Below are positions 1 through 23,518 of a stretch of 26,120 bases of DNA, one piece after another (positions within the stretch are counted from its first letter, which is position 1; the number at the start of each line of letters is the position of its first letter). The position numbers and the translations under genes were made by a program. The notes under the pieces are model-generated. The model was given only the letters and a program-made list of their open reading frames with translations, was not told where the DNA came from and searched no databases. This DNA is from a virus: the IMG/VR virus record IMGVR_UViG_3300042540_001889, positions 1 through 26,120 of that record. One strand, 5' to 3'.

Positions 1-682
1 TTCCTGATGTACCACTTGTTCCTGAAGAACCAGATGTTCCACTAGTTCCTGAAGTACCACTTGTTCCTGAAGAACCAGATGTTCCTGATGTTCCACTTGT
101 ACCCGAAGTACCATTAGTTCCTGATGTTCCACTTGTTCCTGAAGAACCAGATGTTCCACTTGTACCTGAAGAACCACTAGTTCCTGATGTACCGCTAGTT
201 CCTGAAGACCCACTAGTTCCTGATGTTCCACTTGTACCCGAAGTACCATTAGTCCCCGATGTTCCACTTGTTCCTGAAGAACCAGATGTTCCACTAGTTC
301 CTGATGTTCCACTTGTACCTGAAGAACCACTAGTTCCTGATGTACCGCTAGTCCCTGAAGACCCACTAGTTCCCGATGTTCCACTTGTTCCTGAAGAACC
401 TGATGTACCACTTGTTCCTGATGTTCCACTTGTACCTGAAGAACCAGATGTTCCTGAGGTACCACTAGTGCCAGACGTACCATTAGTTCCTGATGTACCA
501 CTTGTACCTGAAGAACCACTAGTTCCTGAGGTTCCACTTGTTCCTGAAGAACCAGATGTTCCTGAAGTACCACTACTACCAGACGTACCATTAGTTCCTG
601 AAGTACCGTTAGTTCCTGAGGTTCCACTTGTTCCTGAAGAACCAGATGTACCACTAGTTCCTGAAGAACCAGATGTTCCTGC
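1..682 (-). repeat. Gly-X-Y coding repeat block 4, continues past the window
   Basis: At least 75 triplets, with GSS (codon TCT) much more frequent than in block 2. A higher-order duplication is visible: the segment from about 90 recurs from about 225, with a 135-nt offset that becomes 153 nt after an 18-nt insertion. The block has no end inside the window. Confidence 0.9.
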
Positions 683-3600
683 TTGTCCACCTAAAATTAT
701 AGCAAACTCAGTATTATCAGAAATAGACCCTGAGCCTGAAGAAGCAATCTGTAATACGTCATAGTTTTCGAATCCCCCTACTGAAGGTAGTACTTGAGTT
801 ATTCGTAATACTTTGAAAATTGAAGAATTATTAACACTAACAATTTTTAATATTGTTCCAACAGTTAATAGGTTTAATAAAGTAACAAAAGACACCTGTG
901 GGTCAAAAGCAGTATCGTCTATTGCAATAGAAGTAGTTGTTGCTCCAAAGTCTTCCCCACTATCTAATGAAAAATAAGTTAATCCTGGATCGACATTAGT
1001 GTCGGTGTTTCCTGTGAACCTCCATATTGCAAGGTTTCCTTCAAGTCCACTACTTCCACTAGTACCTGAACTACCACTTGTTCCTGAACTACCACTAGTA
1101 CCTGAAGTACCACTAGTACCTGAAGTACCACTAGTACCTGAAGTACCACTAGTACCTGATGTACCATTTGTACCTGAAGTACCACTTGTTCCTGAAGTAC
1201 CACTAGTTCCTGAAGTACCAGATGTACCTGAAGTACCACTAGTTCCTGAGGTTCCACTAGTTCCCGAAGTACCGCTGGTACCTGATGTTCCTGATGTACC
1301 ACTAGAACCTGATGTACCACTAGTACCTGAAGTGCCAGATGTTCCTGAAGTTCCACTTGTACCTGAAGTACCTGATGTTCCGCTAGTTCCTGATGTTCCT
1401 GAAGTTCCGCTAGTTCCAGATGTACCACTTGTTCCTGAAGTACCATCCAAAGAAGTTCTTAGAATCGCTAAAATCATCGGCTCATTGTCCACAAAAGTAT
1501 GGTCATATGAGTCCAAAGTTACTGGAATTGACCAATATTGTGAAGTTGCCTCAGTTGGTGTACCCGATACTGTCCATATTTGATTTTGAGATGTAAGAGT
1601 TTGATTTTGAAGAGTAATTTTATTACCTATTTGAAGTAAATTTAGAATTATACCAATATCATCTCCATCAGTATCAATATGATTCACATATATAATTGTC
1701 GATCCTGATTGTGTTGCATTATTCCATTGAATAAATCCTATCGCGGGTTGTCCGTCTTGAGTATCGGTATCTGCTTGATATTCAAAAATAGAAGTCGCTC
1801 CACCGTTAACACCACTACTTCCTGATGTACCAGATGTTCCACTAGTTCCTGATGTACCAGATGTTCCACTTGTACCTGAAGTTCCGCTTGTACCTGAAGT
1901 TCCGCTTGTGCCTGATGTACCACTAGTTCCTGATGTACCTGAAGTACCACTAGTTCCTGATGTACCTGAAGTACCACTAGTTCCTGATGTACCACTTGTT
2001 CCTGATGTACCACTAGTTCCTGATGTACCACTAGTTCCTGATGTACCACTAGTTCCTGATGTACCACTAGTTCCTGATGTACCTGAAGTACCACTAGTTC
2101 CTGATGTACCACTTGTTCCTGATGTACCACTAGTTCCTGATGTACCACTAGTTCCTGATGTACCACTAGTTCCTGATGTACCACTAGTTCCTGATGTACC
2201 ATTAGTTCCTGATGTTCCGCTAGTTCCCGATGTTCCGCTAGTTCCTGATGTACCTGATGTACCTGATGTACCGCTAGTTCCTGATGTTCCTGATGTACCG
2301 CTAGTTCCACTAGTTCCTGATGTACCACTAGTTCCTGATGTACCACTTGTACCTGAAGTACCACTAGTTCCTGATGTACCACTTGTACCTGAAGTACCAC
2401 TAGTTCCTGATGTACCACTTGTCCCATTTGTACCACTAGTACCTGAAGTACCACTAGTACCTGAAGTACCACTTGTTCCCGAAGTACCACTAGTTCCTGA
2501 AGTACCACTTATTCCCGAAGTTCCTGATGTACCGCTAGTTCCTGATGTACCACTAGTTCCTGATGTACCACTTGTTCCTGATGTACCACTAGTTCCTGAT
2601 GTACCACTTGTTCCTGATGTACCACTTGTCCCATTTATACCACTAGTACCTGAAGTACCACTTGTTCCCGAAGTACCACTAGTACCTGAAGTACCACTAG
2701 TACCTGAAGTACCACTTGTACCACTAGTTCCCGAAGTTCCACTAGTTCCCGAAGTTCCACTAGTTCCCGAAGTTCCACTAGTTCCCGAAGTTCCACTAAT
2801 TCCCGAAGTTCCACTAGTTCCTGATGTACCACTAGTTCCTGAGGTACCACTAGTACCTGATGTACCTGAGGTACCACTAGTCCCTGACGTACCATTTATA
2901 CCTGAGGTACCTGAAGTACCACTTGTACCACTAGTTCCTGAGGTACCACTAGTACCTGATGTTCCGTTAGTTCCTGATGTTCCGCTAGTTCCTGAAGTAC
3001 CACTTGTTCCTGATGTACCACTTGTTCCTGAAGTACCACTAGTTCCTGAGGTACCACTAGTACCTGATGTTCCGCTAGTTCCTGATGTTCCGCTAGTTCC
3101 TGAAGTACCACTTGTTCCTGATGTACCACTTGTTCCTGAAGTACCACTTGTTCCTGAAGTACCACTTGTTCCTGAAGTACCACTTGTTCCTGATGTTCCG
3201 CTAGTTCCCGAAGTTCCACTAGTTCCCGAAGTTCCACTAGTTCCTGATGTACCACTTGAACCAGATGTACCACTTGAACCAGATGTACCACTTGTTCCTG
3301 ATGTACCGCTAGTTCCTGACGTTCCTGAAGTTCCACTTGAACCAGAGGCTCCACTAGTTCCTGAGGTACCATTTACACCCGAAAGACCTGATGTACCGTT
3401 AGTACCTGATATACCACTAGTTCCTGAAGTACCACTTGTACCTGAAGTACCACTTGTACCTGAAGTACCAGATGTACCAGATGTACCAGATGTTCCACTA
3501 GTTCCTGATGTACCTGATGTACCACTTGTACCTGAAGTTCCGCTTGTACCTGAAGTTCCGCTTGTACCTGAAGTTCCGCTTGTGCCTGATGTACCACTAG

Positions 3601-5596
3601 TTCCTGATGTACCTGATGTACCGCTAGTTCCTGAGGTTCCGCTAGTTCCAGATGTACCACTTGTTCCTGAAGTACCATTGGTTCCTGATGTACCACTTGT
3701 TCCCGAAGTACCACTAGTTCCTGAAGTACCACTTGTTCCCGAAGTACCACTAGTTCCTGAAGTACCACTTGTTCCTGAAGTACCACTTGTTCCTGAAGTA
3801 CCACTTGTACCTGATGTTCCACTTGTACCTGATGTTCCACTAGTTCCTGATGTACCTGATGTTCCGCTAGTTCCTGAAGTTCCGCTTGTACCTGAAGTTC
3901 CACTAGTACCTGATGTACCTGATGTACCTGATGTACCACTAGTACCTGAAGTACCAGATGTACCTGAAGTTCCACTTGTTCCTGAAGTACCATTGGTTCC
4001 TGATGTTCCTGAGGTACCAGATGTACCGCTAGTTCCTGATGTTCCTGATGTACCGCTAGTTCCTGAAGTTCCAGATGTTCCACTTGTTCCTGAGGTTCCT
4101 GAAGTACCACTAGTTCCTGATGTTCCGCTAGTTCCTGAAGTACCACTAGTACCTGATGTACCACTAGTTCCTGATGTACCACTAGTTCCTGAGGTTCCTG
4201 ATGTACCTGATGTTCCGCTAGTTCCTGATGTTCCGCTAGTTCCTGAAGTGCCACTAGTACCTGATGTACCACTAGTTCCTGAGGTTCCTGATGTACCTGA
4301 TGTTCCGCTAGTTCCTGATGTTCCTGATGTTCCACTAGTTCCTGAAGTACCACTAGTACCTGAAGTACCACTAGTACCTGATGTACCACTAGTTCCTGAT
4401 GTACCTGATGTACCACTAGTTCCTGATGTACCTGATGTTCCAGATGTTCCGCTAGTACCTGATGTACCACTAGTTCCTGATGTACCACTAGTTCCTGATG
4501 TACCACTAGTTCCTGATGTACCACTAGTACCTGATGTACCACTAGTACCTGAAGTTCCACTTGTTCCCGAAGTACCACTAGTACCTGAAGTACCACTAGT
4601 ACCTGATGTTCCTGAGGTACCAGATGTACCACTAGTTCCTGATGTACCACTTGAACCAGATGTACCACTTGTTCCTGATTGTCCAATAACTATCACGATA
4701 AACTCAGAATTGTCAGCAATAAACCCTGACCCTCCTGATGCTACCTGTTGAACACTAAAATCTTCGAAACTACCTACTAAAGGTGTAACACCCGTAATTC
4801 GTAAAAGTTTGAAAAATGTTGGATCGTCAACTTTAACAATTTTTAATATTGTTCCAATCGTTAATCCATTAAGTATTGTTCCAAAAGATACTTGAGGACT
4901 ATAAGCAGTATCATTTATTGCAATAGATGTAGTAGTAGCACCGAAGTCATCTCCACTGTCTAATGAAAAATAAGTTAGTCCAGGATTGATAGAAGTATCA
5001 GTATTCCCTGTGAATCTCCATGCCGCAAGGTTTCCTTCTAATCCACTAGTTCCGTCAGTTCCTGATGTACCACTCGATCCAGATGTACCACTCGATCCAG
5101 ATGTACCACTAGTTCCTGATGTTCCACTAGTACCTGATGTACCGTCTGTACCTGATGTACCATTAGTCCCTGATGTGCCATTAGTTCCTGATGTTCCGCT
5201 AGTTCCCGATGTTCCACTAGATCCCGAAGAACCTGAGGTTCCACTAGTACCTGATGTACCGTCTGTACCTGAAGAACCATCTGTACCTGATGTACCATTA
5301 GTCCCTGATGTACCGTCTGTACCTGAAGAACCGCTAGTTCCCGAAGAACCGTTTGTACCTGAGGTACCACTAGTTCCCGAAGAACCGTTTGTACCTGAGG
5401 TACCACTAGTTCCTGAAGTTCCATTGATACCAGAGGTGCCTGAGGTACCTCCTGTTATGCTAGCCGTAAAGGACGAAAAAGCTATTTGACCCGAGGTCCC
5501 CGAGGTACCTCCAGTATAGTCCGTAACTATATATATCCTATCGTCTGGAGCTGCCGATAGAACTATAGGTAAATCAGTTATTCTAGTGTTTGACAT
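1..5596 (-). CDS. Giant collagen-like (Gly-Thr-Ser)n phage fibre protein, C-terminus beyond window
   Basis: The frame opens at the ATG at 5596-5594 and stays open to the window edge, giving at least 1865 residues. Residues 1-30 (starting [10 protein letters not shown]) resemble the short N-terminal segments of phage fibre proteins that may dock to the virion. Gly-X-Y triplets follow, overwhelmingly GTS with some GSS, GTN and GTD. Blocks lie at about residues 49-185, 306-1262, 1385-1517 and 1639-1865. Three non-repeat islands separate them: A1 (186-305), B (1263-1384) and A2 (1518-1638). A1 and A2 are about 70% identical by hand alignment. Gly-X-Y repeats are known to form trimeric collagen-like rods in phage fibres, so I infer a long tail or head fibre. 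It is the last gene of a tail-gene block. The repeats contain almost no proline. No Shine-Dalgarno is visible. The role and its place on the virion are inferred; the reading frame itself is certain. Confidence 0.88.
683..1045 (-). other. Globular island A2, paralogue of A1
   Basis: Residues 1518-1638 begin [16 protein letters not shown] and match island A1 along the whole length, including a central GTILKIV segment and the closing Gly-Gln before the repeats resume. The DNA differs at many third positions, so the duplication is not very recent, unlike the near-identical repeat DNA around it. Confidence 0.8.
1046..1444 (-). repeat. Gly-Thr-Ser coding repeat block 3
   Basis: About 44 Gly-X-Y triplets, mostly GTS with occasional GSS and GTN, joining island B to island A2. 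The reading frame is continuous on both sides. Confidence 0.9.
1445..1810 (-). other. Globular island B in the collagen-like protein
   Basis: Residues 1263-1384 form a non-repetitive stretch beginning [20 protein letters not shown]. It shows no obvious sequence similarity to islands A1 and A2 but has a similar length of about 120 residues. It contains several Trp and Tyr residues and an Asp/Gly-rich segment (HIDTDGDD) that could bind a metal ion. The family is not recognised. Confidence 0.75.
1811..4681 (-). repeat. Gly-Thr-Ser coding repeat block 2, about 319 triplets
   Basis: This is the longest block: about 957 residues of Gly-X-Y without a phase break that I can find, mostly GTS. The 9-nt unit often pairs into an 18-nt unit encoding GTSGTS. 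Rare variants include GIN near 2635, GAS near 3350 and GLS-GVN near 3370-3390. Longer segments recur, such as the near-identical stretches around 1867-1936 and 3530-3606, and a tandem duplication around 4118-4323, which points to expansion by recombination or slippage. Confidence 0.92.
4682..5041 (-). other. Globular island A1 in the collagen-like protein
   Basis: Residues 186-305 are non-repetitive and begin [16 protein letters not shown]. The mix of aromatic and hydrophobic residues suggests a folded beta-rich domain. It aligns without gaps to island A2 (683-1045) at roughly 70% identity, so one was duplicated from the other. I do not recognise the family. It could be a trimerisation, spacer or receptor-binding domain. 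Confidence 0.8.
5042..5452 (-). repeat. Gly-X-Y coding repeat block 1 (N-terminal)
   Basis: This 9-nt coding repeat holds about 45 Gly-X-Y triplets after the N-terminal head of the collagen-like protein. It differs from the later blocks in its many Asp and Asn substitutions (GTD, GTN) and GSS triplets, and one triplet is GIN. It ends where island A1 starts. Confidence 0.9.
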
Positions 5597-5647: not shown

Positions 5648-6130
5648 TTATGATGGCGGAATTTCTTCTTGTACTATTAATGGATTTCCATCTTGTGTTA
5701 TAATATCTATTCCGTCCTGAGTAATAATTTGAACCTCAAAGATTAGAGGTGTACTACTTGGTGTTGGAGTATTTGTTAGTGTTGGAGTATTTGTAGGAGT
5801 TTGAGTTGGAGTTTCTGTATTAGTAGGTGTTATTGTTGGCGTTACGGTATGAGTAGGAGTAATTGACGGAGTCGGTGTAACAGTTGGAGTTTGTGTTGGT
5901 GTTGGAGTAGTGCATTGTATGTTGACCACCACTCCATCAAGCATGTCATTTCTTGTTACTGCCGAGTAATAAATGTCATTATCAACAAAAACATTAAATG
6001 GTCCTAAGGCGTTAGAATTAGCCGTTAATCTAACAATATACGTTGTACATCCAGTTACTGAAATTTGCTGTTCAATTTGATTATCGCAACCTGGTGCAAT
6101 ATTCGTAACTAAAATAGAATAAGTAGTCAT
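5648..6130 (-). CDS. Small phage protein with Thr/Pro linker, likely virion-associated
   Basis: 160 residues in three parts. Residues 1-73 form a small domain with four cysteines (15, 28, 73 and neighbours of similar type), including a VTGC...GPFNVFV pattern that resembles the start of the 711-aa SprB-type protein. Residues 74-128 are a Thr/Pro linker built from PT steps. Residues 129-160 hold a duplicated IITQDG motif. The linker looks like an extended surface spacer, and I infer a structural or adhesin role from the position between the SprB-like genes and the giant fibre gene. It stands alone: a 91-nt gap with a TATTTATT motif precedes it and 51 nt of AT-rich DNA follow it. The start at 6130 has no Shine-Dalgarno. 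The exact function is unknown. Confidence 0.75.
5747..5911 (-). repeat. Thr/Pro-coding low-complexity tract
   Basis: Coding for residues 74-128 of the 160-aa protein. On the plus strand it appears as recurring GTTGGAGT and GTNGGNGT words. The repeat is degenerate rather than perfectly tandem. Confidence 0.8.
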
Positions 6131-6221: not shown

Positions 6222-6527
6222 TTACTCTAAAATTATCTCCATATTAACAACGCAAGACGCTAATTCTATGGTGATTTGGAACGCACAACCAAAGGTACAA
6301 GTTAATATTTTAATTACTTCACAATTATTACCATCAACTAATCGAAGCATAATTTCAGGTGCAGTTGAAAAAATAGATGGTATGACCGTGTTGTACTCCA
6401 CAACAGGTGGAACGGGTCCTGAAGAAATTGTACCTATTAATGTTTGATTATTTCCATATATATCCGAAATATATACAGTAACCGGAAAAGTACCACCTGA
6501 AATTTCTGTAATTCTTATCTGTGTCAT
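6222..6527 (-). CDS. Small SprB-repeat-like protein
   Basis: 101 residues from the ATG at 6527, which overlaps the stop of the upstream 711-aa gene as ATGA. A start three codons earlier (6536) is possible but would overlap more. The protein reads like a single SprB-type unit: a GGTFPVTVYISD strand pair followed by LRLVDGNNC, then a short tail with further cysteines. This matches the repeat unit of its neighbour, so it may be a partner or a detached unit of the same adhesin. The overlap implies translational coupling. No signal peptide or membrane segment is visible. The function is inferred from similarity and position only. Confidence 0.75.
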   Translation of the reverse strand: MTQIRITEISGGTFPVTVYISDIYGNNQTLIGTISSGPVPPVVEYNTVIPSIFSTAPEIMLRLVDGNNCEVIKILTCTFGCAFQITIELASCVVNMEIILE

Positions 6528-8659
6528 GATAAACAAATTATATTATATCCAATTACTAAATCGATTACAATTTCCTCTCCTTCCAAAGAAGTATTATTTC
6601 TACTTGTTTCGATAGTTATTTGATTATTTAGTTGGTCGATTATAACATTCCCAACGCCAGGTATTCCTAATAATAAAGTACGAATTGTGTCATACCATTG
6701 ATTATCTGTTGGAACTTGGACTAATGAAGTTGATGTAAAGAAATTTTGTGATGCAACTATCCCTGATGGATTCACAGAAACTTTGGCCGTAAACGTCGCA
6801 CTTATTAAATCACAACTTGTATTTCCTGAGGTTAAATCAAAAAATCCTTCATTTAACATTTGTAGTAATCCAAATTTGGTTGGAGATTGAATGTTGAATA
6901 CTTCAGCTCCCATAACATAAGTCTGATAGGAGACCGAATTGGTGTTACAATTTATAGTTGTATTTCTTGTTAATGAACAACCATTTGCATCTACCACGGT
7001 CAAAGAATAGGTACCCGCAGTCAATCCACTAACTTGGATTTGTTGTGGTTCATTTGGTATATTGTCCGACCAATTAAAGATGAACGGAGGCTCACCTGAA
7101 GTAATAAATGCAGTAATCTTTCCACTTGACCCACTACCACAAGAAGTACTATATAAAGAATAGTTTAAGGGTTGACTACTCGGGACTAATATATTTCTTG
7201 TTTGTACACATCCATCCGCATCAGTGACAGTAACAACATGAGTTCCTGATGATAAGTTATTAAACGTTACCGCAGTTAAGTTTGTATCAATTACGTTCTG
7301 TATTCCATCAACAGAATAATCCAAAGGCAAAGTTCCTCCCGTTGTTGTTAGAATTGTAACCGAACCATTATTTTGATTACAACTTGTCCCTGCAACTTGT
7401 GTTGAAATTGTAAATTTGTTTTGAGCGACTAAAGTTACTTCCTGTAAATAAGAACAACCACTATTATCGGATACACCTACAGTATATGTTCCTCCACTTA
7501 GATTTCTAAAAATTTGAGTACCCTGAGAATTACTTATATTCAACTGATTACCCGTTGGGCTAATCAAAGTATACGTGTATGGCACAGTTCCCCCAACAAC
7601 ATTTATAGTAATCGAACCGTTATTACTTGAACAAGTAGAATTTTGTCCTTGAACTGAAACACTTGTAATTCCGCCAGGTGTTTCGAGTGTGGTACCCGCG
7701 GTCATCTGACATAAACCCGCATCTGTCACTAAGAAATTATATTGTCCTGCTGAAAGTCCTGAAATTGAAAACGTTCTTGAATATGATACTAAGACATCAC
7801 CTGTAGATGCCGAATAATAAAAAGGCTCAGTACCACCAGTGATGGTCATGTTAATAACTCCATTCGATTGAAGACAAGTTGGAGGTGTTGAGGTAAATAA
7901 CCCAAGTCCAACTGGACTAACATTAGTTATTGTTGCAGATTTTGATAAAGTACATCCATATGCGTCTTTAACTTCAACAGAATATGAACCCGCAGTTAAC
8001 CCTGTAATTGTACTACCCGTCAACCCATTACTCCAAAGATAAGTATAAGGAGACAGACCCGTTTGACCAGTTACAAAAATTTTCCCTATCGGTGTTCCTC
8101 CACAACTTGAATTTGGTACCACATATAAACCAAAATCCAAAGGTTCCGATTCTTGAACTATAAATGTCTGAGTAAATGCCGTACACCCTCCAAGGTCAGT
8201 TACTTCCAAATAATATGTTCCAGCACTTAGTTCACCAAAAACAACCGTATCTGTATTTGTAGTTGCTGAAGTAAGATAGTTGTTATTTACATCATACAAC
8301 GAATAATTGGTTGATGAATATAATGAAGTTGATGTACCAGTAACCGACCCATTGTTATCTCCACAAGTAGTATTTTGTACCGCAACTATAGACCCGCAAA
8401 CTCCACTTGAAATCGGAATGTTTATTAAAAATTCACTATTAACAGGTAAAGTACTGTCATTAACTCTTAATTGATAAACATTACTTGCTAAACCAACTAA
8501 AGAGGCAGGTTGTGCTACTATAGTTTGAGACGCATAAGACGGACTGATAAACTCTACGGTATATGGAGGTGTTCCTGCACTAACAAAAAGATTAAAAGCT
8601 CCCGAATTATTATTGGAGCAATCACCTGTTACTGTTATGTTATAATTTAATACCGCCAT
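6524..8659 (-). CDS. SprB-type repeat protein, probable phage adhesin or tail-tip protein
   Basis: 711 residues built from about seven units of some 80 residues, with unit cysteines at about 14, 99, 186, 262, 343, 427 and 507. Each unit has a Cys-x-x-Asn-Asn-Gly-Ser type start, a GGT-x-P-Y turn and a close like GLSAGTYxVxVTDxxGC. This is the pattern of SprB repeats, known from Bacteroidetes gliding adhesins and other secreted proteins of that phylum. Residues 580-711 form a different C-terminal module that resembles the C-terminus of the upstream 995-aa protein (shared VPTxxxW and an ITI strand). There is no signal peptide, as expected for a virion part. The start at 8659 shares its A with the upstream stop (TAATG). 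I infer a host-binding structural protein; the repeat family is the firm part. Confidence 0.8.
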   Translation of the reverse strand: MAVLNYNITVTGDCSNNNSGAFNLFVSAGTPPYTVEFISPSYASQTIVAQPASLVGLASNVYQLRVNDSTLPVNSEFLINIPISSGVCGSIVAVQNTTCGDNNGSVTGTSTSLYSSTNYSLYDVNNNYLTSATTNTDTVVFGELSAGTYYLEVTDLGGCTAFTQTFIVQESEPLDFGLYVVPNSSCGGTPIGKIFVTGQTGLSPYTYLWSNGLTGSTITGLTAGSYSVEVKDAYGCTLSKSATITNVSPVGLGLFTSTPPTCLQSNGVINMTITGGTEPFYYSASTGDVLVSYSRTFSISGLSAGQYNFLVTDAGLCQMTAGTTLETPGGITSVSVQGQNSTCSSNNGSITINVVGGTVPYTYTLISPTGNQLNISNSQGTQIFRNLSGGTYTVGVSDNSGCSYLQEVTLVAQNKFTISTQVAGTSCNQNNGSVTILTTTGGTLPLDYSVDGIQNVIDTNLTAVTFNNLSSGTHVVTVTDADGCVQTRNILVPSSQPLNYSLYSTSCGSGSSGKITAFITSGEPPFIFNWSDNIPNEPQQIQVSGLTAGTYSLTVVDANGCSLTRNTTINCNTNSVSYQTYVMGAEVFNIQSPTKFGLLQMLNEGFFDLTSGNTSCDLISATFTAKVSVNPSGIVASQNFFTSTSLVQVPTDNQWYDTIRTLLLGIPGVGNVIIDQLNNQITIETSRNNTSLEGEEIVIDLVIGYNIICLS

Positions 8660-11646
8660 TAGTTAATAGTACAATTTATACTTATATTTATCCCCGAATT
8701 CAAGGAAAGTGTCTCGTTAATATTTCTCTCCGTACAAGTTAGACTTGTAATTGTTAACAAATTACCATTTAAGAAATATGTAAATCCATAGTCATATAGT
8801 TGTGGAAGATATTGTATTAAAGCATTTCTCCACATTGTATTCGTTGGTACATCCGTTAGTCCATACCCAACATAATATAATTCTTTGATTATTATATCAC
8901 CACCGATTCTTAAGTCAACATACCAATTACTTTCAACTGAATTTTGGATACAATCATTTAATGTCAGTCCACTCTGTGTCAACATATTGTTAACCCTATT
9001 AGATAATATACTACTGAAATTACTTACATCCACATCACCATTCAACCAAGGGAATATGTTAAAGTCAGTATATTCAGTTGTGCATGTATAATCAAAAATA
9101 CTAGATATGATGAAACAAGGGTCGACAGGAACAGGAATAAATTGACATCCTCTTTGTCTTCTATAAACAAACTTCTGTCTTTGAAATATTGAATTTTCCA
9201 TTCTAACTCCCGTATTCCATATTGTTGTCGCAGGAATCATTTGTTCCACTAACTTCATCCAAAAAGGGCCAATACCATTTACATAATCAATTAATTTTTG
9301 ATAGGTATATTTGTTATTAGGTAACCCAACAGTACTTTCAGATTCAATATACTTCCAAAAGATTGATTGTAAGGTAGGATATCCTCCTGTTTTACCATCC
9401 GTGATATATTGACGGTTTCTAACATTAATCATGTTCTCCCAAAAAGTTTGAGAGAATTCAAAAAACGTTTTCTTTTTTGGTTCTGGGTTTATAAATGTAG
9501 AATCAACTCCGCCAGGTACAGGATATCCAACTGTTAGTCCTGATTCAGGAATCGGATAGTCATATCTTCTTGATTGAGTCCAAACATCATATACTAAACC
9601 TTGCGCTGGATTTAAGAAAAGGTCAACGTTTTTAACATTCAAAACTAACTTTTCATCATCAACAAAATAATATGCATTGTAATCTGCACTTGTTGAAACT
9701 CTAATTCTATCATCTTCCTCTAACCAAGACTTATTGTTATCAACCACTTTTCTAAGTTTGAACCCTTCCGTCATATATGGGAAGTCTCTGAATCTATTTA
9801 GATAAAGTTGCCCATAACTAAATGGCGTTAATTGTGTTTGAATATTGAAATTTTGTCCCGTAAATACCTGACCTGTGATAGTGACTTCATCAGGACTTCT
9901 ATGTGATGGAGTTGATTCATACCATCCAGCTCCTAACTGAAAGAAATAACTCTCAGTATTAACAGGTGCCTTTGGAAATCCTTCCAAATCTACAGGATAA
10001 TCATCCAATCTTGTTGTTACATCTTGATATGTGTTTGTGGAAGTAAACGCACTAAAAGTCTGACCTTTTATTTTATACGTCGATCCAGGAATAAAACCTG
10101 GAGTACTCTCAACATATGTTCCTCCTGAAATTGCCGCCCATTGAACACCAAATTGGTCCATATTTATTTTTTGGTCCGCCAAATAAATGTGTTCATTAAA
10201 CTCTATCAATGAATCAGGTGCTCCGATTAATCTTAACATGAATTCAACAGACCTTCTTGTCCCTTTTGATTTGAACAAATAAGATGCATTCAAAATTAAA
10301 TTACGATAAAACGCGTAGTTTAATTCAGTTGGTGTTAAGGCTCTAGCGTATCCAGGATATGTTGGAGTCGAAGTATTTCCGAACACCGAACTTAGAAAGT
10401 TTTCATTTGTTATTGGTGAAAAGTTTGAACTCCATCCAAGTGTTTGTGCCAAGTTAACTAAAAGTTGTGATGGTATATCATTTGAAGGATTGTAACTAAC
10501 TGAATTCATATAAGCTAATGCATCTATGAACTGTTTGATTTGGTCAAAACTTCTTCCGTAAATTTGAAATATCTTCTCAACCTTACGTCCAAGTGTATCG
10601 AATTCTTTAAGGGAATCCGAAACCAAAAATCTTGAAATCAAATTGGTTTTGAATGAATCCAAATTAATCGCAATCGCTTCAAGTTGGGTTAAATAGTTTT
10701 CAAATAAAAATGATTTAATATCTAAATTCCAAGTTCCTTCTTTAGGCCATGTAACTTGTTGATAATCTGTAAAAAATTGTCCCGCCTCATTCTGTTGTGG
10801 AACTTGAAATATTGCAGTATATTCAGGTCTGATAAGTCTGTTCAATAGAAATTTTTGTACCTCATCGAAATCTTCTGCAAATATTCTGTCAACAACAAAA
10901 TCATTTGGTCTTACTTGAAATCCCTCATTAGTTGTAGTCGCAGTTGTACCAAATGGTGCACCTGACACAATAAATTCAATAAATCCTGTTGATAATGTTT
11001 GTGATGGAGTGAATGAAATTACATTAAATATATTATCATTAATCGCAATACAATAATCTAAGTATGTATTATATAAATTTCTATATGGAGAAACCGTAAT
11101 CTCCCTTACTGATAAGTTTGTCGCAGCACTTAATGAATAATCAATATCAAATGGGTTATTGATTCTGCTAGTGTTTATTCTAAATGTAGTTTCATTTAAT
11201 GTTGAATCGTAAACTATATTAGTCGCTGTCGCACCGGTAACGAAATCCTCATTATTGAATTGTATATCTAAAGATGCTGGAAATCTATGAATAATTTCGG
11301 TAATTGAGACTTGAAATCGCTTACTTAATGACCCATACATTGAGAAGTTCAGAACCTGTGACACATCATAGTTCGGATATACTCTGAACTGTGTCGCCAT
11401 TATTCGTCTACTCTCAGTTAAATCACTAATGTTCAATCCCTCCAAACTTATCGGTTCAGAGAATGCCCCAACATTAAAATCTCTAGTTACTCTTTCTGTA
11501 ACCGAAGTTGTGAACTCAAAGTTACCTTGCGTAAGTCCTCCTCCTTCAACTGTTTGTAATCCTACAATATTGTCAGAGAAGGTTGCAGCACCACTACCTG
11601 GCCGTGGTGGGTAAAAAAATTTGGTAGTCCTTTGAGTCGTAGCCAT
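8659..11646 (-). CDS. Large baseplate/tail protein with gpI (TssG/gp7)-like module
   Basis: 995 residues. Around residues 385-480 there is an ordered pattern of an LVNLAQTLGW motif, a stretch reading RNLILNASYLFKSKGT (KGT at 461-463) and a helix with RLIGAP. This resembles the P2 tail protein gpI family, whose members (T4 gp7, T6SS TssG) pair with gp6/J/TssF in the baseplate wedge. That similarity is by eye only. The N-terminus is Gly/Pro-rich, and the middle looks beta-rich. The last 115 residues resemble the C-terminus of the downstream SprB-type protein. The gene starts within a TAATG overlap with the 302-aa gene and ends in another, so three genes are coupled. Structural role is likely; wedge identity is a working idea. 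Confidence 0.7.
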   Translation of the reverse strand: MATTQRTTKFFYPPRPGSGAATFSDNIVGLQTVEGGGLTQGNFEFTTSVTERVTRDFNVGAFSEPISLEGLNISDLTESRRIMATQFRVYPNYDVSQVLNFSMYGSLSKRFQVSITEIIHRFPASLDIQFNNEDFVTGATATNIVYDSTLNETTFRINTSRINNPFDIDYSLSAATNLSVREITVSPYRNLYNTYLDYCIAINDNIFNVISFTPSQTLSTGFIEFIVSGAPFGTTATTTNEGFQVRPNDFVVDRIFAEDFDEVQKFLLNRLIRPEYTAIFQVPQQNEAGQFFTDYQQVTWPKEGTWNLDIKSFLFENYLTQLEAIAINLDSFKTNLISRFLVSDSLKEFDTLGRKVEKIFQIYGRSFDQIKQFIDALAYMNSVSYNPSNDIPSQLLVNLAQTLGWSSNFSPITNENFLSSVFGNTSTPTYPGYARALTPTELNYAFYRNLILNASYLFKSKGTRRSVEFMLRLIGAPDSLIEFNEHIYLADQKINMDQFGVQWAAISGGTYVESTPGFIPGSTYKIKGQTFSAFTSTNTYQDVTTRLDDYPVDLEGFPKAPVNTESYFFQLGAGWYESTPSHRSPDEVTITGQVFTGQNFNIQTQLTPFSYGQLYLNRFRDFPYMTEGFKLRKVVDNNKSWLEEDDRIRVSTSADYNAYYFVDDEKLVLNVKNVDLFLNPAQGLVYDVWTQSRRYDYPIPESGLTVGYPVPGGVDSTFINPEPKKKTFFEFSQTFWENMINVRNRQYITDGKTGGYPTLQSIFWKYIESESTVGLPNNKYTYQKLIDYVNGIGPFWMKLVEQMIPATTIWNTGVRMENSIFQRQKFVYRRQRGCQFIPVPVDPCFIISSIFDYTCTTEYTDFNIFPWLNGDVDVSNFSSILSNRVNNMLTQSGLTLNDCIQNSVESNWYVDLRIGGDIIIKELYYVGYGLTDVPTNTMWRNALIQYLPQLYDYGFTYFLNGNLLTITSLTCTERNINETLSLNSGINISINCTIN

Positions 11647-21203: not shown

Positions 21204-23042
21204 TTATGAAAAAGTAGTAGATTGGAAATTCTGAACCGAAACCTTAATATCTTTATTTGGATATCTGATTTGGTATACCTGTGATGGTTGTGCAAAAATT
21301 GTTGAGTTGACTGGTTGAATCTCTCTTGTCTCAGGATTAGAATATTCCATAGAAGTTTCCTCAGATGAATACTGACCACCAACATTATTAAAAACTTTAA
21401 TTCCTGAAACAGTTAAAACTCCATTTTGGTTTTGAATAATACTTTGAATTTCAGATAAATAGACATTCTGTCCCAACTCCCTTACTTGTGGATTAAAATA
21501 AGCCGAGATTCTATCCACAACATCAGCAATAACTTGACCTGAATTCTGAGCCGATGTCAAAACAATAGAAACTTCAAAACTCAAATCGATAACCTCAGCA
21601 GTAAGAATAGATATATAATCATTCATCATTCTATAGTTAGAAAGATACGTCGCGACATTTTGTTTTAAGGTATTTGATACAATATTTGTTAACTTTCCTG
21701 AAGTATCATATGATAATAATTGAATCAAAATTTTGTTGTTGTTTTCAGTAACTGAAACTTTGGCAGGTGCACCAAACTCTGATGGCATATTTCTGATAAT
21801 AGACTCATAATCTTGTACTGTAACGGCTCTCTTTTGAGCTGAGAAGTTAAATGAAACATAGTTTCTAATTTCTTCAAGTGACGGTAACCCCGCTCCACCG
21901 ATTGCAGCAGTAACGTTATTACATCTCAAAGAATTAACTACTGATGAGTTAGTAAGTTCGGATGGTCCATTAACAAAGAAAGACACGGTACCAATTTGAG
22001 TAATAACATTTGTACCTAAGTTAGTACCTAAACCACCACCAATTCTATATTGGACAAATAAAGTTGAGTTTGGAGTTAAAGCAGACCCTAAAGATATGTT
22101 GTTCGAATATCTTTGTAAATCTATTGTCGTCCCTAATGTCGTGAATTGGTCAAGAGCATCTTGTGCTGTATTTGTACCACCACCAAAAGTTAATTTTTTG
22201 AATCCTTCAGGTGTATATTCACTAATAAATCTATTTGGTGTTTGAATATACCTACCAACCTTAATACCTGGCTGGTCGGATACTTTTGTCGGATCTTCAA
22301 TAAAGACCCTATCCTCAGCCAAAGCATCTACCTCATACCATTTGTTAGATGGTCCTAAAAATTCCGCACTTGTTGGTATGTTGGTGTATTCAGTTCCACT
22401 TTTTAATAAAACACTCGTTATACCTAATACATTTTTTTCAGGTAAAAATAATTCAAAAAATGGCTTAACATCATTTGGTGTAATAATTCTTTTGAACACC
22501 TTAGTAATACCATTAACAACCAGTTCTCTTTTAGTAATTGTATAATTAACTAATATATTATTCGCGTTGAAGTTAGGTATCTTAAGTCTATTAGGGAATC
22601 CTTGGGCATTGTATGGTGATGTGAAATCAACATCATATATATTTTCAAAAACAATACCAGCACCTGAAACTTGAGACCCACGTGATAAAATTCCAAGATA
22701 CCTTTCATCTTCTTTATCCCCAAAGGCCGGTACCGTAATTGAAAAATCTACTAAAGATACTGATGGTCTTTGTCCAGGCAGTTTCAATCCATAAGTTCTT
22801 GCAATATTATATATTGAAGACCTTTGTTGAGCATATTGCAATACTGTTTCTTGTATACTCCTATCGATGTGATAATGTAAGTTGTCCGCAACAGCAGCAT
22901 TCAAGTCTAAAAATACTGAGAATACAGATGCGTCATTAAAATCCTGAATCAGTTCAGGATAATATGTTCTCACATAATTTAGTAACTCAGTTCTTATTCC
23001 TTGATAATCTCTGGTTGTATATGAAATTTTACGATTTGCCAT
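21204..23042 (-). CDS. Baseplate wedge protein, gp6 / baseplate J-like
   Basis: 612 residues, against about 660 in T4 gp6. The N-terminus (ISYTTRDYQGIRTELLNYV, then DFNDASVFSVFLDLNAAVAD) and the middle stretch around RNMPSEFGAPAKVSV match the gp6/J family as I know it: a start that packs in the wedge core and a region that dimerises to close the inner baseplate ring. The family joins gp25 and gp7/gpI in the wedge and triggers sheath contraction. The gene follows the gp25-like gene after 5 nt, the usual pairing of these two in contractile-tail systems, and has no Shine-Dalgarno. The 3' gap separates it from the 1635-aa gene. Family assignment is confident; the exact subtype is not. Confidence 0.88.
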   Translation of the reverse strand: MANRKISYTTRDYQGIRTELLNYVRTYYPELIQDFNDASVFSVFLDLNAAVADNLHYHIDRSIQETVLQYAQQRSSIYNIARTYGLKLPGQRPSVSLVDFSITVPAFGDKEDERYLGILSRGSQVSGAGIVFENIYDVDFTSPYNAQGFPNRLKIPNFNANNILVNYTITKRELVVNGITKVFKRIITPNDVKPFFELFLPEKNVLGITSVLLKSGTEYTNIPTSAEFLGPSNKWYEVDALAEDRVFIEDPTKVSDQPGIKVGRYIQTPNRFISEYTPEGFKKLTFGGGTNTAQDALDQFTTLGTTIDLQRYSNNISLGSALTPNSTLFVQYRIGGGLGTNLGTNVITQIGTVSFFVNGPSELTNSSVVNSLRCNNVTAAIGGAGLPSLEEIRNYVSFNFSAQKRAVTVQDYESIIRNMPSEFGAPAKVSVTENNNKILIQLLSYDTSGKLTNIVSNTLKQNVATYLSNYRMMNDYISILTAEVIDLSFEVSIVLTSAQNSGQVIADVVDRISAYFNPQVRELGQNVYLSEIQSIIQNQNGVLTVSGIKVFNNVGGQYSSEETSMEYSNPETREIQPVNSTIFAQPSQVYQIRYPNKDIKVSVQNFQSTTFS

Positions 23043-23047
23043 CTATA

Positions 23048-23518
23048 TTAAATATTAATAATTACAAAATCACTTTGAGCAAAAGTCGATCTGTTGTTTG
23101 AGTAATCTATTCTAATTTTTGCAGTATATTCTGAGGTACCTTTTCCTGGTAATCTATAAATTGGAGATTCACTTGTACCTATAATGTTTTCACCTATCAT
23201 AGTATCAACTTCCTCCATTGGGTCTGCCGGTGTAATTGTTATCTGATTTAATAAAAGGTTCGGCATAAATTGTTGAACCGCATCCCTAATATCTGATTGA
23301 ATTGCATCAAAAGTCAAACCATCGAATGGTTCAAATAAGAATTCGTATAATCTAGTACCAAATTCAGGTAAATAATATCTACTTCCCTTCCTTGTTAAAA
23401 GTAAGTGAATTAAATCAGATTTTACCTGTTGAGATTCTAGTTGAGTAAGTTCTAAAAAATCACCACGTCTAGAATCTCTGAATGGAAAATTAATACCATA
23501 TGTAACTCCGTTCGCCAT
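23048..23518 (-). CDS. Baseplate wedge protein, gp25-like (GPW/gp25 family)
   Basis: 156 residues. The family signature is clear: RKGSRYYLPEFGTRLYEFLF at 43-62, followed directly by the Glu-Pro pair of the EP motif, then the helix DAIQSDIRDAVQQF and the beta strand NQITITPADP. This protein (T4 gp25, P2 gpW, T6SS TssE) has a lysozyme-like fold without activity and joins the wedge core to the first sheath ring. An insertion around 103-125 separates the two last strands. The gene begins a block with the gp6-like gene 5 nt later. A TATTTATA motif lies 30 nt upstream, just beyond the nrdA terminator. Confidence 0.92.
   Translation of the reverse strand: MANGVTYGINFPFRDSRRGDFLELTQLESQQVKSDLIHLLLTRKGSRYYLPEFGTRLYEFLFEPFDGLTFDAIQSDIRDAVQQFMPNLLLNQITITPADPMEEVDTMIGENIIGTSESPIYRLPGKGTSEYTAKIRIDYSNNRSTFAQSDFVIINI

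Follow-up and report, generated by a model that had tools for sequence, protein, structure and literature searches.

A seven-unit SprB-repeat protein in the baseplate gene module of a family of large tailed phages

The baseplate module and its SprB-repeat protein

The window analyzed here is an entire 26-kb IMG/VR record (IMGVR_UViG_3300042540_001889; 26,120 nucleotides). Its minus strand encodes, in order, ribonucleotide reductase, a gp25-like protein, a Baseplate_J/gp6-like protein, and proteins of 1635, 565, 278, 364, 302 and 995 aa, followed by a 711-aa protein with SprB repeats, a 101-aa protein, a TP-rich protein of 160 aa and a collagen-like fibre (Table 1). The stop codon of the 995-aa gene overlaps the ATG that starts the 711-aa ORF (TAATG), and the ATG of the 101-aa ORF (coding part 6225-6527) overlaps in turn the stop codon of the 711-aa gene (ATGA). 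An alternative TTG start at 6536 would yield a product of 104 instead of 101 aa.

This gene context, with gp25, Baseplate_J, the 995-aa gene and the fibre genes, supports the assignment of the 711-aa gene to the phage tail. Over part of its length, the 995-aa protein matches one of 1336 aa encoded in Microcystis phage Mel-JY01 behind a gp6-like gene and a tail-lysozyme gene, a setting that supports a baseplate role for the 995-aa protein as well. Sequence searches of the PDB returned nothing for the 711-aa family and only weak matches, none of them to phage proteins, for the 995-aa family, and a PHROGs search with the latter gave no useful match. The TP-repeat protein ranges from 160 to 720 aa among relatives and is thus a variable linker adjoining the fibre gene.

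Table 1. Features of the window (all on the minus strand) and the evidence for each
Feature	Coordinates	Strand	Evidence
Collagen-like tail fibre, cut by window end	2..5596	-	PHROG tail fibre families
TP-repeat linker protein; 160 aa in the window, as long as 720 aa in relatives	5648..6130	-	ORF and related loci
101-aa all-beta protein, ATGA overlap with SprB gene; SprB kinship putative only	6222..6527	-	Profiles, model, orthologs
711-aa SprB-repeat protein: a C-terminal domain after seven Ig-like/SprB units	6524..8659	-	PF13573 E 3.1e-19; AF2 pLDDT 82; about 41 distinct orthologous loci
C-terminal alpha/beta domain (aa 587-711), outside the SprB family; probable paralogue of C-terminal part of 995-aa protein	6527..6901	-	Model; hhalign 22.5; P 0.003 with more members
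Unit 7 (aa 495-572), most conserved unit	6944..7177	-	SprB stretch 7061-7144; mean pairwise identity 0.71
Unit 6 (aa 414-494)	7178..7420	-	Model and alignment; Cys427, Cys484 invariant
Unit 5 (aa 331-413)	7421..7669	-	SprB stretch 7553-7645, over cut-off; Cys343, Cys402 invariant
Unit 4 (aa 250-330)	7670..7912	-	SprB stretch 7796-7897, over cut-off; Cys262, Cys317 invariant
Unit 3 (aa 173-249)	7913..8143	-	SprB stretch 8018-8122; Cys186, Cys236 invariant
Unit 2 (aa 93-172)	8144..8383	-	Model and alignment; Cys99, Cys159 invariant
Unit 1 (aa 1-92), most variable; variable loop about aa 40-52	8384..8659	-	Beta-sandwich in model; profile match to later units E 1.5e-8; mean pairwise identity 0.55
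995-aa conserved baseplate-module protein	8659..11646	-	80 loci at 79-100% identity; distant match in Microcystis phage Mel-JY01 baseplate array
Baseplate_J/gp6-like baseplate wedge protein	21204..23042	-	PF04865 29.9 bits, cut-off 21.1; PHROG baseplate wedge
gp25-like baseplate wedge protein	23048..23518	-	PF04965 42.3 bits, cut-off 27.2

The SprB family of Pfam (PF13573; curated cut-off 28 bits) matched the 711-aa protein in five stretches with a total of 68.8 bits (E 3.1e-19), and is by far its best Pfam family. When the whole window was scanned with the same model, single units scored 12-36 bits and two exceeded the cut-off on their own. BiPBP_C also scored above its own cut-off in this protein; no Ig family was among its Pfam matches, and the BACON domain (PF13004) was absent from them up to E 1. 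An AlphaFold model built from 36 family members (mean pLDDT 82) contains seven beta-sandwich units in succession (aa 1-572), a linker of poor prediction quality (aa 572-587) and an alpha/beta domain without SprB similarity that makes up the last 125 aa, with a pTM of 0.34 that leaves the relative placement of the domains free. Unit 1 is not strongly detected by Pfam, but profile comparison relates it to the later units (E 1.5e-8). These results confirm what an earlier note, made from the DNA letters, had read from the motif pattern: SprB repeats, about seven in number. That the protein is encoded among tail genes, as the note also said, is supported by the gene context. To the same note the 101-aa neighbour had looked like one more unit, which was not confirmed: SprB matched none of 24 orthologs of that protein (0/24, up to E 1) and its profile likeness to the units of the 711-aa protein is weak (P 0.0035). 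The 101-aa protein is all-beta in a structure model of moderate quality (pLDDT 68), which found no significant match in a PDB fold search; given the degenerate SGGTYPI...VDxNGC pattern that it carries, it may be a very diverged SprB unit.

By inspection the 711-aa protein has no signal peptide (MAVLNYNITVTGDC is without a hydrophobic stretch). As to sorting domains of the type IX secretion system (T9SS), neither CHU_C nor TIGR04131 matched, and TIGR04183 stayed below threshold (19.4 bits against a cut-off of 23) at an internal position. Because it lacks both features, the protein is not a secreted adhesin of the host type.

The C-terminal domain resembles the C-terminus of the 995-aa protein, with an hhalign score of 22.5 compared to a mean of 12.9 (sd 2.6, maximum 20.4) for controls with shuffled columns and no more than 16.1 where windows of the 995-aa protein outside its C-terminus were used. 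With more diverse members, the match extends to the last residues of both proteins (P 0.003). The two domains are likely, although not proven, to be paralogous.

Conservation and variation among relatives

The 711-aa protein belongs to a widespread family of large tailed phages that seems to be uncultured and probably infects Bacteroidota; related contigs are as long as 326 kb. Directly after the 995-aa gene, and starting within about 10 bases of its stop, an ORF with SprB motifs was present in 76/76 loci, these being the ones among 80 with enough downstream sequence (the remaining four have <360 bases left); removal of near-copies left about 41 distinct SprB proteins. Relatives at about 49% identity keep the same gene order, with the SprB gene after the 995-aa gene. 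The protein can serve to mark the baseplate module in these large phages.

C-terminal extensions aside, orthologs are mostly 709-717 aa long and differ by single-residue indels, and all of their cysteines (17/17) are invariant across 36 sequences. Because length is constant down to about 49% identity and every cysteine is retained, we regard the protein as a fixed structural component. Pairwise identity averaged 0.55 in unit 1, against 0.60-0.71 in the remaining units and 0.675 in the C-terminal domain, and the 995-aa protein reached 0.80; conservation within the 711-aa protein peaks near the C-terminus and is lowest in unit 1, whose variable loop shows small indels in the alignment. The dN/dS ratio across units was about 0.05-0.10, a rough value only because dS is near saturation. 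Each unit carries about two invariant cysteines, which might form disulfides after release; the protein is presumably assembled in the reducing cytoplasm.

In a few relatives a TP-rich linker is appended at the C-terminus, followed in two of them by about 300 further residues. Orthologs with both a C-terminal TP linker and an extra domain were seen at L095:12985-16383, L086:12985-16245 and L100:12985-15573. The extension in L095 matches the YVTN beta-propeller of 1l0q (E 1.4e-8), and a close relative of this propeller occurs in L099 as a separate downstream ORF. Related phages also encode a second protein of 829-949 aa that combines TP-rich linkers with about two SprB-like units (L205:15388-17877, L215:10711-13200, L209:10378-13227 and L210:9505-12189), roughly 20-60 kb away from the first gene. 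In one distantly related phage (L228/G013) whose baseplate genes are in the same order, no SprB gene follows the homolog of the 995-aa gene; there, SprB-like units scoring 20.7 bits, below the Pfam cut-off, occur within the homolog of the 1635-aa protein, in its C-terminal part (L228:3109-7416).

Origin of the repeats and the probable host

When bacterial and archaeal genomes were scanned with the profile of the family, 63 loci emerged, all but one (62/63) titled Bacteroidota and the other a MAG titled Sphingomonadales. These cellular relatives are 24-36% identical to the phage protein, mainly over the repeats, and in tblastn the matches to Bacteroidota proteins that run across the array have E values down to 1e-52, calculated relative to the candidates only. 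In a tree of phage and bacterial units, each unit position of the phage protein forms its own clade (support 0.63-1.0); a single clade for all phage units was not rejected (AU p 0.256), the tree having too few columns, and for this reason it does not discriminate between uptake of the complete array and uptake of a single unit that was then amplified. The domain capture from the host put forward in the earlier note is plausible from the distribution of relatives.

That note also took the repeats as support for a Bacteroidota host. The host assignment itself is likely on evidence independent of SprB, namely a lack of Shine-Dalgarno enrichment: in the 326-kb relative, used because the window alone has too few genes, 13 of 315 genes carry a Shine-Dalgarno-like motif, compared to 10.4 expected by shuffling, a chance level that resembles a Cellulophaga phage (2/56) and differs from phages of Klebsiella (28/49) and Microcystis (16/58). 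The SprB match alone is poor evidence of host because a Hoc-like protein from a Klebsiella phage passes the PF13573 cut-off too (36.4 bits). A Bacteroidota-type promoter motif, also considered as host evidence, was dropped because its excess in the 326-kb relative was shared by the Microcystis phage control.

A candidate baseplate stalk and its alternatives

We consider it probable, at about 0.7, that the 711-aa protein has a structural place in the baseplate or the fibre-attachment region, as a seven-unit SprB/Ig-like stalk serving as spacer or adaptor. The fixed chain of seven SprB-type Ig-like domains would form an elongated, rigid stalk that places receptor-binding parts at the cell surface of the Bacteroidota host. 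The parts so positioned would be the TP-rich linkers, the collagen-like fibre and, in some relatives, the C-terminally fused beta-propeller, and these varying parts are likely determinants of host range. Consistent with this reading, the gene overlaps its neighbours and is flanked by baseplate genes (gp25, Baseplate_J and 995-aa) on one side and by the collagen-like fibre on the other, and the best solved relative of its product is an elongated bacterial adhesin, the grappling hook protein GhpA of Aureispira sp. CCB-QB1 (E 1.5e-18, Z 11.9). GhpA shares the long beta-sandwich chain, but it is bacterial, several thousand residues long and only 10-20% identical to the phage protein. We infer that the 711-aa protein is present in the virion, and likewise infer both its stalk role and which of its ends would be distal. 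The C-terminal extensions suggest one orientation; the low conservation of unit 1 may point to the opposite one, with unit 1 as the distal, binding end.

Precedents differ in how closely they correspond. A full-length structural match, A0A6J5LD72 of an uncultured Caudovirales phage (UniProt/BFVD; 714 aa, 36% identity, E 2.6e-62), is very probably an ortholog. It is named by its domain only, and the sources compared give no role or gene context for it; because it already bears the name 'SprB repeat', assigning this domain in phages has a precedent. Among described systems, the nearest is a tail-associated tandem array, the crAss-BACON repeats of crAssphage, in which each position forms its own clade (de Jonge 2019, PMC6949934). 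Both are Bacteroidota-associated arrays of Ig-fold domains in a tail gene section with position-specific clades, but the crAss-BACON array belongs to PF13004 rather than PF13573, occurs in other phages and has eight domains rather than seven. SprB would be a further domain family of Bacteroidota surface adhesins, the second after BACON, to serve as a fixed tandem array in phage tails. A literature search that took in few of the subscription journals retrieved no paper connecting phage virions with SprB repeats.

SprB repeats occur in cell-surface adhesins. The units might accordingly be adhesive themselves, captured from a Bacteroidota adhesin for binding host polysaccharide in the way proposed for BACON arrays of crAssphage. 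This is the least unlikely of the alternatives, given the titles of the cellular relatives, the variable loop of unit 1 with its small indels and the crAssphage precedent (PMC6949934). Receptor-binding surfaces usually change fast, however, and here the number, order and sequence of the units are conserved across the family; variation in this region falls on the TP-rich, collagen and propeller parts. A protein so well conserved and so constant in length fits a structural stalk better than a surface under rapid change. Any weak carbohydrate affinity of the units would be putative, and the binding of the same polysaccharides or of the gliding machinery that the earlier note raised would be speculative.

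It is somewhat more doubtful that the Pfam match reflects generic Ig-fold similarity, the units being ordinary phage Ig-like decoration domains with no descent from Bacteroidota adhesins. Such a reading would account for the SprB score of the Klebsiella Hoc-like protein and for the BiPBP_C match, yet SprB is the leading family by a wide margin with no Ig family beside it, the tblastn matches run across the array to Bacteroidota proteins, and the best solved structure is a Bacteroidota adhesin. The Hoc-like decoration proteins of T4-like Klebsiella phages resemble the 711-aa protein in having Ig-like units that match the SprB model, but their best family is Ig_3, they are short, they are often annotated as head decoration and their host is enterobacterial.

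That the array is a host-derived mimic contacting the gliding adhesin layer or its polysaccharide ligand, the phage docking on a moving surface, is very improbable, and that it mimics or engages the gliding adhesin system, the virion docking on or riding a moving surface track, is a shade more so: family resemblance to SprB and a likely Bacteroidota host are all that speak for it, the protein lacks a sorting domain and so is no T9SS client, its identity to cellular relatives is just 24-36%, the SprB model also matches a Klebsiella phage protein, and an Ig-fold stalk accounts for the data without gliding. The SprB-type T9SS adhesins of Bacteroidota share PF13573 repeats with the stalk candidate, which differs from them in having neither signal peptide nor sorting domain, a fixed set of seven units and a place in a phage baseplate cluster.

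An SprB protein of another kind was seen in a 642-kb huge phage, LR756502; no close phage relative of it was found in the viral collections searched. This 1670-aa protein (L218:9448-14460; LR756502.1 around 514378-519390) combines 13 SprB stretches with a T9SS type-B sorting domain (CHU_C E 5e-14, TIGR04131 E 2e-13) and what looks like a signal peptide. Judged by these domains it is a phage-encoded, host-type secreted surface adhesin, different from the 711-aa protein, and it could serve in superinfection exclusion, cell aggregation or surface remodelling.
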